Part shown: positions 34,682 through 40,602 of the stretch, piece after piece
How positions within the stretch are numbered: the first letter of the stretch is position 1
Layout of the letters: every line of letters begins with the position of its first letter
Assembly (NCBI RefSeq): GCF_003633715.1
Contig: NZ_RBIE01000004.1
Span: forward strand, 16,641-80,640
Reading direction: 5' to 3'
Length of the DNA stretch: 64,000 nt
Source of the DNA: Thermovibrio guaymasensis
GTDB lineage: Bacteria; Aquificota; Aquificia; Desulfurobacteriales; Desulfurobacteriaceae
Program-made: the position numbers and the translations under genes
Notes under the pieces: generated by a model
Seen by the model: the letters and a program-made list of their open reading frames with translations, nothing else
Database searches by the model: none
What the model was told of the DNA's origin: nothing

Positions 34682-34708
34682 TTAATTGGGATTCTTAGGA
34701 GGTAGTCT

Positions 34709-37700
34709 ATGGGAAGAAAGTGGAGGAGGCAGAAATTAACTCTCTCAACTGGTTTTATACTATCTGCCATTTTAACTTCTCAGGCCCTTGCTCAGCACCC
34801 TGCCGTTAAGCTTATTGACGTTGACGGAAATCCTGTTTCTGAAAACCTAGACACTTCAAAGACCGTAACTGTTCAAAGTAGAAGCGGTAGTTCGGTAACC
34901 CTTCCTAGGGGAACTCCCGTTAGTTTTGAGAAGACCTGTAGCCAGTGTCACGAAGGTATAGTAGATGATGTAAGGGCTTCTCACCACGGTGCAGTTGGCC
35001 TACACGATATGGGCTGGATGGATAACCACGAAACGAAGGGAGACGATACAGGAACTAAGGATTTCGTTACAAACGCTGTTCTTAAAATGCGCTACTTCAG
35101 GAGTAAGTCCCACTACGGAGGTTGGTGACCGCCCTCTTACCGCCAGTTGGCGGCAAAGAAACCTCTAAAGGACCCTGCAGTTCCAGATGGCTCTGTTGAC
35201 GGCGTAAATCCTGCAAATATGTCTTCCTACAAAGGTTTTAACTTTGACATGGGAACTATGAATCACAACATAACCTGTAACTCGTGTCACGCTGGAGGGG
35301 GAGCAGCCCAGTTTGGAAGGGAGGAAGAGGACCTTGATAAGGTTCTTGAAGAGAAATTAGGAGCGGACCTTTGGGAAGACCTTAAGGATAAAGATTGGTT
35401 TATTCACGATGAAGAGTACTTGTCTAAGACGGGTATAGATGGAGATCTACTGGGATATTCGGAGTATGAAGTAGGAGCAGGTTACATTGGAAAGCCGGGC
35501 GTTTTCAACTACAAAAGGTCAGGAGTTAACGATACAGACTGCTTTATGTGCCATGCAGATGCCTCATCAGATAAGAGGATTTACTCTGAAGTTAACGGTA
35601 CGAAAGTTTACCCAATAATGCCTGCTAACCCGAGAGTTATGGTTTTCAAGGGGATGACCTCCGATGGTGAAACAATCGTTATATCCCTTGGTTTTCCACC
35701 GAAGATTGGGGAGGTTATAAACGGAAAGAAAGTTGAGAAAGTTGACTCAGCTTATTACAACTCAGTTCCCCTTTCGGTTCTAAATAGCGTCTATAACGAT
35801 TCTAACCTTAAGAGTAGGATAACGGATAAGGACAATCAAGAGCTTAAGTTCTACCTCTATCCGAACAATCCTAACGGTGCAACTAGGGAAGTTGCAAGGG
35901 TTACCTACTTTGAACACCCCGAAACTACTAAGGATAAGGATGGTGGAGAGGTCTACGTAAACGGAGGTTCTGTAACCTTTAAGGACGATAACGGGAGTGT
36001 TGTCTATAGAACCTTTGCTGGATTCTTCTTTAAGTACATCTCTACAGCCTCCCTCATGGGAGTTGATACTGATGGAGATGGCGTTCCACTTGCCTACGTA
36101 AGGTTTGTTAAAGATGAAAAGGGTTTCTGGAGACCGGAAGTTTACTACGATTCTGATGAGTTTAACTCTAAAGGAGAGGTTGATCTACCAATCCTTGAAA
36201 ATAGGGTAGGGGATAAGAACGTTCCATCTACAGAAGTTCATCCTCAGGACTACACCTATTCTGTTCCAACGAAACTGGGAGACGCTAATAATCCTTACCC
36301 CAGTATGACTAACGGTAATAAGGATAGGGAATGGGGATACGTCTGTTCCTACTGTCATATGGCGATTCCTTATAAGAGTGGGGAGACCTCTAACGGTGAC
36401 ATCTATACGTGGGTTACGAGGAAGGGAACTTTAGGGGTTGCTGCTGAGGTAGTTAAGAGGGGAGACGTCTTCTCCTACGATCTTCACAGGGGTGGAGAGA
36501 ATAAAGGGAACCTACCCCACGATGCTTTCGTTAATACAGACTTTAGTGATCAAAATCAGAAACAACAGGCCTTTGGAAGGATGTTGACAGCCAAGTCGGT
36601 AGTTTCCTTTGATGACATTCCTATCGGTTACGATGTTCACTTTGACAGTGAAAAGGGAAGTATGACTTGTCTGTCTTGCCACGGTGAAGGTTCACTGTCT
36701 ACCGAGGAGAAGGAATATCACCCAATCCACCATGACTTCCTTAAGGGGAACGACTGGGGTGGTCACTGGGATCAGTCCCTTGACTATAACCCATCACTTA
36801 AGACCTGTTTAGACTGTCACTTTGGCGGTTCAAGGCAGCTTGCGGCTGAAGTTCACTTAAACGCTTTCGGGCCAAACGGAGTTTCTGCTGTCCATATGGA
36901 GAAAGTTGCTTGTGAGGTCTGCCACATTCCGTTTAAGACCCACTGGACTTTTAGGACTTTCTACGACGTTCTCGGGTACTCCTATAACTTTGATAACAGA
37001 ATGCTCGGCTATGATTTAGAAAATGGAACTGTTAGAAAGCTACCAGAGAGTATGTTTACTCCTGGGTTTGGTCCGTTTATGCCAATTGGTGGTTATGGAG
37101 CTCCCCAACCCTTCTGCATAGTTAGAACGGAAAATGGAAAGGATACTGTAGTTCCGATTTACCAGGTTGACTTTGATCCAAGGCAGGCTGCACTCAGGTA
37201 TAAGCAGAGCGTGTTTGGTATATGGAAGATTCCTGAAAACGCCTTCCCGTGGGCTTGGGCTCCTGTAATTATCAACAACGGCTTCAGGCCCGATTCTCCT
37301 GGAGGCCAGAAGTTTATGTACAGGATTGCCGATCCACTTACACTTGTAACTTGGTACGACAAGTCAACAGGAAAGGTCTTGTACACTAGGGAGATGGCAG
37401 CTGCACTTGACGGTGCCGTTAAGTCGGATTCAGCTTCAAAGGGAGTTCTTCCAGCCGGCCAGAGTGAAAAGAGAGTCCCAGCCTACTTCATCCACGACGG
37501 TAAGGTCTGTGTAAAGACTATCCTCGGTAAGTACATCTGTGATGACAATGGAGACTACCTACCTGAAATTGATACCGATTCCGAGTATCAGGATATGAAG
37601 GCAGCTATAACTGAAGTTCTTAAAGCTGAAGGAGTTAAGAATCCAGACCCAGTCTTCTACCTGTGGATTGCTCCCTTTAGCATTGATCACGGAGTTCTCC

Positions 37701-39241
37701 CTAAGGAGTATGCTCTCGGTTCAGGAAAAGTTGTGAACGGTGAAGAGCTTAACTGTTCGTCCTGTCACGATGCAAAGGAGGGAAGACTTCCTCAGGCTAA
37801 CATGGCTGATATTAACTCAAGTAGCCTAAAGGAGCTCATTGAAAGGGATGAGAAAGGAAACGTTAAGTACTTTGGACTCGGTAGGGAAATCGTAACAGTT
37901 CCGGTTAAGATTCCTCCTTCTGCTTACAAGGAGGCTGTTAAGGTCTTCTTTAACTCTCCGGAGAACCCCGACGGTTCACCTAAGTATGGAAGTATGAACG
38001 GTAGAGAGGTTATGGTTACAACTGCTGGAGACATTCTCGTTAACGCCCTTACAAATGGAGTTGATGTTGATAGACATTTAGTTCCTATTCCCGTTGAAAG
38101 TTCAGGAATAGATGGAGTTGCTTTTGCCCTTCCTGGTAAGAAGGCCCAGTGGAAGATGAGGTTTGACGGAATTGAGGCAGAGGTTGAAACGGAAGCTCTC
38201 CACGGTGATGAAGTTCCAAGGAGAGCTATTGTCTTAAGACTTAAGAATGAACTTCCAGAACTTCTCGGCTTTGAACATCACGCTGAGGAAATCCTTGATG
38301 CTGGGGGTGAAACCCTCGTTCCAGTATTTACTCCGATAATTCCCTCTGAGTTTATAGAGAAGATCAAGTTTAACCTTGCTAAACTTCAAGTTGTAGGTCC
38401 TGAGGGTCTCTATATCAACTGTGCAAAAATCCACAAGGTAAGGAAATCTGAAGGTGAGAATGTCTACTACGAACTTGACAAGGATAACTTTAAGCCAACG
38501 TCAATTTCTGTGAGTGAAGCTATAAGTAGAGGTTGGGCTTCGTACGACTCCTACACAAAGGAACTTACAGTTAACGTTGCAGCTTTAAGGGAAGGTGTTT
38601 CAGGAGAGGGAGAGCTCGTCTTTGCCCTCATGAGAGCTCCGGAATCTACAGTAGTTATTCCGGAAAGGATTACTCTAGTTTCCCAACCTTCTGCTTTAGA
38701 GGTGAAGGTTAAGGTAACTGTTAGTGGCAAAGAGCATACAGTTGATATAGCAGTTGAGGATGATGGAACTTCAATTTCTGAAGTTCTCGGAAAAGAGCCC
38801 CAAACCTACAGGGAGCTCCTTGACCTTGCCAAGGAGTTTGAACTCAGTAAAGTTATTCTCGGAGTTAAGTTAACTTCAACTTCAGAGAAGTTTAAGTTGA
38901 CGTTCAAGGGTGCAGCTTCCTTGGTTGACCCTGATAAGGCTGTTGTTGCTGTTAAGAAGGGAGAGGGAACGGAGGTTGAAGTTAAACCTTCTGTTTCCGG
39001 AAATGACCTTGTAGCTGAGGTTGATTTAACAACCAGGTCTGAAGAGAACGGAGAGGCGGTAGTTGCAGTTCTTGGTGAGAAATCCTCTACTCCGACTGCT
39101 GAAGTTTCCTCTTCCGGTGGAGGCGGTGGAGGAGGATGTTCAATGGGAGCTCCTCAAAGTGCTGCAAACGGTCTAGTTAACCTTGGAGCTCTCTTAACCG
39201 GCCTACTTGGCCTCTTCAGATTTAGAAGGAAGAAGCATTAA
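34709..39241 (+). CDS. Octaheme cytochrome c with a predicted selenocysteine (in-frame UGA)
   Basis: A reading frame of 1510 residues broken only by UGA at codon 140 (35126-35128). Translation continues in phase as W-U-PPSYRQLAAKKP, and a SECIS-like stem-loop follows the UGA. A signal peptide ends near LTSQALAQ. Eight CxxCH haem motifs lie at residues 77, 190, 278, 546, 654, 700, 735 and 1016; one precedes the UGA and seven follow. A 400-residue beta-rich region without haem follows. The tail SSSGGGGGGGCSMG (Cys1477), a hydrophobic segment and FRFRRKKH form a surface-sorting signal. It is probably a surface redox protein. Sec decoding is inferred; a broken gene is the alternative. Confidence 0.75.
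35126..35153 (+). promoter_or_regulatory. Predicted bacterial SECIS element at the in-frame UGA
   Basis: UGA (35126-35128), an 11-base spacer, then stem CCGCC (35140-35144), loop AGTT and stem GGCGG (35149-35153). Bacterial SECIS elements lie inside the coding region with the SelB-binding hairpin about 11 bases after the UGA and a GU in the apical loop, as in E. coli fdhF. This element has the spacing, a fully GC stem and the GU. The stem could extend by one A-U pair. Confidence 0.78.
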
Positions 39242-39318: not shown

Positions 39319-40602
39319 ATGAGAGGTAAACTTGGAATTCTCCTGACGGCTACGCTCTTCCTTCTTTCCTGTTCTAACGGTGAAAAAGTTTCAAAAGCTG
39401 AAAAAGTTAAAAAGGAAAAGGGCCTTCAAAGTAGAGTGTGTTCAGATGATACGGTTTTGGCTAAAGGGAAGAACATTAAGGTGACCCTTGCCGATTACAG
39501 GAGCACGTGGAAACTCCTAAACCCTAAAGCTAAGGAGTTCTTTAAAAACCATCCTGAAGAGCTCTTAAGGAGGATGGTTAACCGCCGCCTCGTTCTGGCT
39601 TACGTTAAGGATAGCGGTCTTGCCAAAGAGTACGGTCTTGATAGGGAGATGGAGGAGTTTAAGAAGGAATACCTCTCCAGGAAGTTTGTTTCAGACCTTG
39701 CCAGGAAGAGAGTTAAACCGATAAGCGAGGAGGAGATAGAGAAGAGGTTTAGAGAGCTCTTTCCCAACAAAGACCCTAAGGAGATTAGTCAGGGAGATAG
39801 GGAGTTTATAAAAAACGAACTTCAAGTTAAAGCTTATGATAGGGCCGTCTCTTCGGTGTATTCGGAGATTGAGAAGAAGTTAAAGGTAGTTAAGAAGGAC
39901 GGTAAATTAACAATTGAGTGTTGCGGTATAAAGGTCTCTGAGAAGTTGGGGAAAGACCCTAAGAAGCAGGAGGAGAAGTTAAAGGAGAGGTTCTTAACTG
40001 AATACTTCTACAGTCAGGCTTTAAAGGCAGGTTACGATAAAGACCCTGAATTTAAGAGGATGTTTACAGAGTACTTTGCCGGTAAGGCAATAGAAGTTTT
40101 CAAGAGGGAGCTCTCAAAGAAAATAGAGGTAAAGCCTGAAGAGGTTGAGGATTACTACCGGAGAAATAAGGAAAAGTTTAAGATGCCTGAGAGGGTCAAG
40201 GCAGTCGTTTTCTACTTCTCAGACGAAAGGAGAGCAAAAGAGGCTAAAGAACTCTTAGATAAGGGAAAGTCTTGGCAGGAAGTTGCTAAGAGGTTTGGGC
40301 AGTTTAACGCTAGAGAGAGGGTTTACTATAAGGACGCTAAAGACCCTATAGGGGTAGCTATCTTCTCAATAGGTAATCCAAAGGGCAAGGAAGCTATAAT
40401 TATTTCACTTTCAGAAAACAGGTACGCTTTGGCTTATCCGGTTCAGTATATTCTCGGTGGACCAATTCCTTTTGAGAAGGCAAAGAAGTTTATTGAGTTA
40501 AAGCTGAAAGAGAGAAAGCTTAGAGAGGCTGAAGAGAAAGAACTTTCTAAGCTCTGGAAGGAGTACAAAGTCAAGCTTGAGAACCTGTCCTGCTTAAGAT
40601 AG
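39319..40602 (+). CDS. PpiC/SurA-like lipoprotein, probable periplasmic foldase
   Basis: A 427-aa protein with a lipobox LFLLSC near residue 18, so it is lipid-anchored. The N-terminal region (HPEELLRRMVNRRLVLAYVK) resembles the SurA/PrsA chaperone domain. KPEEVEDYYRRNKEKFKMPE leads into a parvulin-like segment (VKAVVFYFSDERRAKEAKEL). Key parvulin residues are not all clear. It directly follows the multiheme cytochrome and may help fold or mature it; that role is inference. The start follows TTTGGAGGAAAT. Confidence 0.7.
   Translation: MRGKLGILLTATLFLLSCSNGEKVSKAEKVKKEKGLQSRVCSDDTVLAKGKNIKVTLADYRSTWKLLNPKAKEFFKNHPEELLRRMVNRRLVLAYVKDSGLAKEYGLDREMEEFKKEYLSRKFVSDLARKRVKPISEEEIEKRFRELFPNKDPKEISQGDREFIKNELQVKAYDRAVSSVYSEIEKKLKVVKKDGKLTIECCGIKVSEKLGKDPKKQEEKLKERFLTEYFYSQALKAGYDKDPEFKRMFTEYFAGKAIEVFKRELSKKIEVKPEEVEDYYRRNKEKFKMPERVKAVVFYFSDERRAKEAKELLDKGKSWQEVAKRFGQFNARERVYYKDAKDPIGVAIFSIGNPKGKEAIIISLSENRYALAYPVQYILGGPIPFEKAKKFIELKLKERKLREAEEKELSKLWKEYKVKLENLSCLR

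Follow-up and report, generated by a model that had tools for sequence, protein, structure and literature searches.

Does the single UGA that interrupts a long multihaem cytochrome gene of Thermovibrio guaymasensis end the protein, or does it encode selenocysteine (Sec), and what would a Sec do among the haems? The gene lies in a 64,000-nucleotide stretch of contig NZ_RBIE01000004.1 (assembly GCF_003633715.1, positions 16,641 to 80,640; hereafter the window). Its reading frame, at 34709-39241 on the forward strand, runs for 1510 codons plus the final stop (codon 1511), and the UGA at codon 140 (35126-35128) is its sole internal stop. The context reads GGW-UGA-PPSYRQL with the identical frame on both sides, and eight CxxCH motifs are encoded, all of which agrees with the original prediction for this DNA. 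On the basis of the frame and its homologues, the product was described as a 1510-aa octahaem cytochrome c with a predicted Sec140, a member of what we call family A.

Decoding of UGA codon 140

Standard open reading frame (ORF) calling cut the gene into 34709-35128 (139 aa) and 35147-39241 (1364 aa, TTG start). A full-length homologue search, in which the 7991 best candidates were scored, yielded 31 database homologues, among them Theam_1684 of Thermovibrio ammonificans HB-1 and one Desulfurobacteriaceae protein that was 99% identical. None of the 31 aligned upstream of query residue 147, and 28 started with M/LAAK, the first possible start 3' of the UGA. Because annotation starts behind the UGA, the database entries are missing the signal peptide and the first haem, the very loss that a gene predictor had been expected to cause. 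Public annotation would thus conceal the selenoprotein family, as all 31 homologues from this search are without the pre-UGA part.

The split shared by ORF calling and the 31 homologues is also what speaks for a true stop, which would leave two genes, or one decayed gene, with the downstream part starting at TTG 35147. That part, however, carries seven haem motifs yet has no signal-peptide-like start, and the frame and the TGA are kept in 36 genes of three families. These were obtained by profile searches over 22 Desulfurobacteriaceae genomes, of which the first gave families A and B and the second gave families C and D. Families A and B were present in 17 of the 22 genomes, and after de-duplication there were 14 A, 13 B and 9 C genes with a UGA (the 27 A and B genes from the first search). 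TGA stood at the site in all 45 site-containing loci (of 48 examined), as it does in the window, with the flanks [GA]W and PPSYRQLAAK. The 45 loci comprised 18 from a peptide-pattern scan and 27 from the profile search, which overlap; the other three loci (L067-L069) were C-terminal pieces. The context in family C was GKL-TGA-[PA]PAYRQLAP in nine genomes. These genes would add a selenoprotein family with three paralogous branches, and the source genome carries one UGA gene of each: the window gene (A), one B and one C.

The UGA is followed by 11 bases and then by CCGCC-AGTT-GGCGG at 35140-35153 (forward strand), so that the stem, loop and spacing originally described for a hairpin here were all found. 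The hairpin overlaps TACCGCCAGTTGGCG (35138-35152, forward strand), the invariant 15 bases of the predicted selenocysteine insertion sequence (SECIS), which encode Y R Q L A, begin at the tenth base after the UGA and were the same in all 36 distinct UGA genes. The codons TAC CGC CAG TTG GCG were the same in each of 37 rows, including a duplicate (L091 = L027), and the adjoining codons before and after them vary. The rows were picked by the motif [PA]P[SA]YRQLA after TGA, which presets the amino acids and leaves the codons free except for TA[CT]. Among the 65 columns of families A, B and C with an invariant, degenerate amino acid, only the five hairpin codons were single-codon; in A and B only, 7 of 226 such columns were single-codon, and five of these were the hairpin codons. 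Elsewhere in these genes three of the codons are rare, with CGC, TTG and GCG making up 5.3%, 5.7% and 6.2% of the Arg, Leu and Ala codons, respectively, and two are common (TAC, 75.6%; CAG, 70.9%). These codon statistics are given without a probability because the genes share ancestry. A search of 136 Aquificota genomes found 36 copies of the exact 15-mer in 17 of them, always within this cytochrome family, and no copy of the reversed control. These results suggest that part of the protein conservation at YRQLA is imposed by the RNA, and a frozen five-codon hairpin common to paralogues of about 25-40% identity makes a very clean natural SECIS candidate.

Published criteria for bacterial SECIS elements (PMC13188914; this and the other papers are cited from excerpts of their text) comprise a loop of 3-9 nt, a stem of 4-16 bp, a G within the first two loop bases, a UGA-to-loop distance of 16-37 nt and a minimum free energy of -7.5 or lower. 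The hairpin lies within all of these limits, with an AGUU loop (4 nt, G second), a 5-bp stem, a distance of 16 nt and -9.4 kcal/mol for a 24-nt stretch; the family C stem has 4 bp. Two folding results weigh against it: RNAfold on the 61-nt context favoured a different fold, and so did one of two family C stretches. The hairpin bases never vary and so offer no covariation.

The sel genes, whose presence had been named as a check on the Sec reading, were all found above cut-off in the source genome (1.62 Mb, 99.98% complete): selC (tRNA-Sec) with 80.8 bits, selB with 431.5, selA with 609 and selD with 372.3. selB was above cut-off in 20 of the 22 family genomes, and tRNA-Sec has been reported in T. 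ammonificans and Desulfurobacterium thermolithotrophum (PMC4227106). Since the hairpin follows the UGA, SelB and Sec-tRNA would insert Sec at codon 140. Reading of the UGA as another amino acid, or its bypass by a recoding other than Sec insertion, is extremely improbable given the same frame on both sides, the presence of selA, selB, selC and selD, a hairpin and spacing that match bacterial SECIS elements, and a commonest residue in relatives that is Cys, the usual counterpart of Sec. That same Cys in the long relatives (next section), together with the five frozen codons after the UGA, also leaves a true stop very improbable. The Sec reading of the original prediction is strongly supported by the sel genes, the conserved UGA and hairpin, and the Cys of the long relatives, and on this sequence-based evidence codon 140 is almost certainly decoded as Sec.

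The selD gene of the source genome has an in-frame TGA of its own near its start (L017:1531-1533; VRASG-U-GAKLSP). A hairpin-like stretch unlike that of the cytochromes comes after it, and SelD is thus probably a selenoprotein itself.

The residue at the Sec site in relatives

A profile search with families A to D gave 155 matches, of which 120 were listed, and reached other phyla. From these, a 38-row alignment chosen for diversity was built with 4 rows from the source genome and 34 of the 120 listed matches. The alignment at position 140, suggested beforehand as a test, had Cys in the Sec140 column in 26 of 35 non-Sec rows. The closest context was GNYGGNW-C-SPAPLYRQLA in Cys relatives, against HYGGW-U-PPSYRQLA in the Sec protein. 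The Cys family used as query gave 1251 matches, and all 120 listed, which include members of the query itself, had Cys after NYGGx[WYF]. Among the 81 parseable matches of the A to D search (19 of 100 were unparseable), 45 of the 50 longer than 680 residues had a Cys between haems 1 and 2, against only 4 of the 31 short ones.

Several of these results count against a universal need for the residue. The other nine of the 35 rows had S (2), V (2), G (2), I (1), L (1) or a gap (1), and one of the V rows had a Cys one place off. No Cys was found between haems 1 and 2 in 27 of the 31 short and 5 of the 50 long matches, which makes the residue dispensable in part of the superfamily. The same follows from family D: of the 15 genes in the second profile search that reached the site, nine had TGA (family C) and six had Ser (family D, 6 of 6 genomes). 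The long branch thus holds firmly to Cys or Sec at the site, and most of the short branch has neither.

The relatives with Cys are octahaem cytochromes of about 820 aa (an uncurated family, GNYGGxW-C-SPAPLYRYL) whose sources include Bacteroidales, Planctomycetes and Ignavibacteriales. They resemble the window protein in having eight haem motifs in the same order, a Cys exactly at the Sec position within W-[C/U]-xPx(x)YRxLA, and a GGG after haem 2. Unlike the window protein, they have Cys for Sec, and haem 1 is CX3CH in some members. Several members carry cytochrome b or NapC-type domains; one member, P0088, has long predicted helices at its end and lacks the Gly-rich Cys signal described below, and a fold search with its structure gave no useful match. 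Sec thus occupies the site at which a widespread octahaem family with no named function carries mostly Cys, which would make that Cys a reactive, testable site.

The Sec form itself was seen only in Desulfurobacteriaceae. With the 15-mer, none was seen outside this family across the 136 Aquificota genomes, and none was seen among the 120 listed of the 1251 Cys-family matches. Two A/B peptide patterns, run against one genome for each GTDB species, gave 18 loci whose titles all name Desulfurobacteriaceae, Thermovibrio or Desulfurobacterium, although such a scan is blind to Sec forms of the Cys family elsewhere. Eight Cys-family entries with seven haems were considered as UGA-truncated Sec proteins of other phyla and were ruled out, as their N-termini carry a CX3CH first haem.

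Protein class and similarity to octahaem tetrathionate reductase

The window protein scored 31.5 bits against TIGR04315, whose cut-off is 375, and 28.9 bits against PF22113, whose gathering score is 30; precomputed tables give PF22113 for most homologues. PF14522 (Cytochrome_C7; 31.6 against 24.8) was the only known cytochrome profile over its cut-off, and the ExtKL model NF040886 did not match the window protein at E values up to 1e-3. Membership in TIGR04315, ExtKL or MtrC/OmcA was rejected on score. No multihaem NCBIfam model reached its cut-off in any of the eight relatives scanned, long and short.

The statement in the original prediction that no established family of Sec-containing multihaem cytochromes was known calls for revision. 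ExtKL of Geobacter has been proposed as a Sec multihaem cytochrome with five haems (PMC5877670), and the table of a 2026 review lists both ExtKL (NF040886) and WP_331457571.1, a Sec-bearing octahaem TIGR04315 entry annotated in GenBank (PMC13188914). The latter, compared here by its table entry only, is like the window protein an octahaem cytochrome annotated with one Sec; unlike it, it belongs to TIGR04315, and its Sec motif is given as '-' in that table (PMC13188914). ExtKL of Geobacter sulfurreducens is also a multihaem c-type cytochrome with one proposed Sec, annotated as two genes (gsu2937-gsu2936), but has five haems and 49.5 kDa and lies within the ext gene cluster. The suggestion of novelty survives in part: the Sec families look new, since the window protein matches neither known model, yet they are not the first of their kind. 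In the open-licence literature searched, the listings and excerpts contained no account of Sec cytochromes from Desulfurobacteriaceae or of the Cys/Sec pair.

Octahaem tetrathionate reductase (OTR) of Shewanella oneidensis (PDB 1sp3, TIGR04315) was the nearest solved structure. The Cys-family profile found 1sp3 with an E value of 1.4e-9, best over the haem 4-7 part; a profile of alignment A1 found no PDB chain by sequence. An AlphaFold model of residues 28-1110 (predicted local distance difference test 81.4; predicted template modelling score 0.86) had 1sp3 as its sole credible Foldseek match (probability 0.98), and a viral fold search gave no match. The model is poor near the Sec, with model residues 87-112 below 50 and the Sec-holding block averaging 53. 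OTR shares eight haems with the window protein and has a Cys between haems 1 and 2; it differs in having Cys64 for Sec, and family A, at 1510 aa, has long insertions.

Three genomes of one genus (g4) without families A, B and C encode an OTR-like octahaem protein (L107, L108 and L109; 189-193 bits) with a hydrophobic C-terminal stretch, and the L108 gene is interrupted by a TAA. L109 and L107 are 79% identical.

These OTR-like proteins have NDYC between haems 1 and 2, and the NDYC Cys of L109 aligns to Cys64 of 1sp3, counted on printed positions. In a global profile alignment, the conserved Cys of the Cys family falls opposite the NDYC Cys of L107. The correspondence of Sec to Cys64 runs through these two weak, linked alignments, and several results count against it. 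The 1sp3 stretch with Cys64 scores only 9.9 bits (E 1.5), the global alignment is forced, and the local profile alignments cover haem 1 only. Neither the profile of the Sec families themselves nor a 23-row MAFFT alignment places Sec on the OTR-like Cys, and the Foldseek similarity to 1sp3 is weak (E 4.3e-3; TM 0.29 by target). A literature search on Cys64 of octahaem proteins found nothing. Cys64 presumably lines the OTR active site, and we lean slightly towards Sec occupying a catalytic site equivalent to it.

An alternative is that Sec140 is not a free nucleophile but binds a haem iron axially. This would create a natural haem c with a selenolate ligand, tuned for electron transfer or catalysis. 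Only six His residues outside the haem motifs are conserved (in at least 21 of 23 rows) for eight haems, which leaves two haems without a conserved His partner, and sulfur enzymes such as TsdA offer precedents for c haems with a Cys ligand. The ligands could, however, be other residues or His outside the aligned positions, and OTR is not known to use Cys64 in this way. We regard an axial role as improbable.

Cell location, proposed function and remaining features

The C-terminus (39116-39238, forward strand) has a sorting-like signal in which GGGGGGGC-SM is followed by a hydrophobic stretch and FRFRRKKH. The five Gly and the Cys of GGGGGGGC were invariant in 17 rows, and the C and D paralogues end similarly. 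The best curated C-terminal matches were below cut-off (LPXTG anchor, 15.2 against 15.9 bits; MYXO-CTERM, 10.7 against 20). One CPBP protease was matched in the source genome (L110:1222-2261), directly before lspA; it is closest to the myxosortases, below their cut-offs, and scored 80.4 bits against the 100 of the Mrt core model. This protease beside lspA is a candidate for acting on the Gly-rich Cys signals that the C-termini share. From these signals, surface lipid anchoring of the family A cytochrome is a reasonable inference.

The reading we prefer, with a rough probability of 0.6, is that the window gene encodes an octahaem cytochrome whose predicted Sec140 is the reactive group of an OTR-type active site and reduces sulfur-like acceptors at the cell surface. 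The protein would be exported and loaded with haems, and a myxosortase-like protease would anchor it outside via the C-terminal Cys. The haem chain would then carry electrons from the quinone pool to a site lying between haems 1 and 2; there the selenolate would attack an S-S (or similar) bond, and the adjacent haem would regenerate it. The cytochrome b or NapC-type domains of some Cys relatives count in favour of this proposal. As to the substrate, elemental sulfur, polysulfide or tetrathionate can be named tentatively. Thiosulfate was dropped as a likely substrate because T. ammonificans, which uses nitrate or sulfur, reportedly uses neither thiosulfate nor sulfite (PMC3570795).

The proposal bears on the unresolved sulfur-reducing step of hydrothermal-vent chemolithoautotrophs, for which these cytochromes are candidates. 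The sulfur reduction pathway of T. ammonificans has been called unclear (PMC5441870), as has thiosulfate reduction in D. thermolithotrophum been called unknown (PMC12724263). It has been suggested that cytochromes may hand electrons to polysulfide (PMC12724263), and porin-cytochrome clusters have been reported in both species (PMC4245776). A more far-reaching version is that the three Sec octahaem families of these deep-sea vent bacteria hold a selenium-haem site, with the selenolate possibly bound to or facing the iron, that performs the missing surface reduction of sulfur or polysulfide; we consider it quite unlikely. Weighing against a sulfur role are the other enzymes already proposed, namely Sqr or Nsr for T. 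ammonificans (PMC5441870) and TrxR and Nsr for D. thermolithotrophum (PMC12724263), and the thiosulfate and sulfite result cited above. In addition, profile searches and the 15-mer scan found genomes G007 and G010-G013 to be without families A, B and C, so the cytochromes cannot be the sole sulfur-reduction route of the Desulfurobacteriaceae.

Sec may also be real and serve to reduce nitrogen compounds (nitrite, hydroxylamine) or oxyanions of selenium or tellurium in place of sulfur compounds; OTR, too, reduces nitrite and hydroxylamine. T. ammonificans reduces nitrate to ammonium by a route whose nitrite step awaits experiment (PMC5441870), and ExtKL, the other proposed Sec cytochrome, has been linked to selenite reduction (PMC5877670). 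The neighbours identified beside the window gene, alaS upstream and a peptidyl-prolyl isomerase gene downstream, point neither to nitrogen or selenium metabolism nor to sulfur, and the chemistry of a selenolate would favour attack on S-S or Se bonds. A nitrogen, selenium or tellurium substrate is somewhat unlikely.

The remaining features of the window gene, all on the forward strand, were located as follows. A putative ribosome-binding-like site, AGGAGG (34697-34702), was read from the letters 6 bases 5' of the ATG. Residues 1-28 (34709-34792) form a signal-peptide-like stretch, judged by its basic N-terminus, hydrophobic core and ALA-Q end, and homologues start alike. Haem motif 1, CSQCH (residues 77-81, 34937-34951), was recognised by motif and homologues and is the one lost under the split annotation. 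The others, recognised likewise, are CNSCH, followed by AGGG (haem 2, 35276-35290), CFMCH (haem 3, 35540-35554), CSYCH (haem 4, 36344-36358), CLSCH (haem 5, 36668-36682), CLDCH (haem 6, 36806-36820), CEVCH (haem 7, 36911-36925) and CSSCH (haem 8, 37754-37768).

The paralogues of the source genome were located as well; the two with Sec (B and C) lie elsewhere in the genome, beyond the DNA on which the original prediction was based. The family B gene (L076:6354-10307, reverse strand; contig C2, near 178.4-182.3 kb) encodes a protein about 39% identical to the window protein and lies between a release-factor-like gene and a FeoB-like gene, both named by visual inspection. The family C gene (L074:7575-10034, reverse strand; contig C1, about 152.6-155.0 kb) reads GKL-UGA-PPAYRQLAP and has the 4-bp version of the hairpin. 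The family D gene (L075:5695-8598, reverse strand) reads GMYNRV-S-VPHMFKLAP, with Ser at the Sec position, and the database protein P0035 has Thr at the corresponding position. Sec and Ser are thus a natural difference between paralogues (families A to C against D). Two internal TAG codons were reported in the family D match of another genome (L080, G003:C19:11683-14487).

Directly 3' of the cytochrome gene, the isomerase gene (39319-40602, forward strand) was assigned to the PPIC type by PF13145 (35.1 bits). A PPIC-type isomerase gene lay downstream of family A in nine of ten loci examined, and the tenth locus (L031) stops within the cytochrome gene. The isomerase is perhaps a folding helper of the family A cytochrome.

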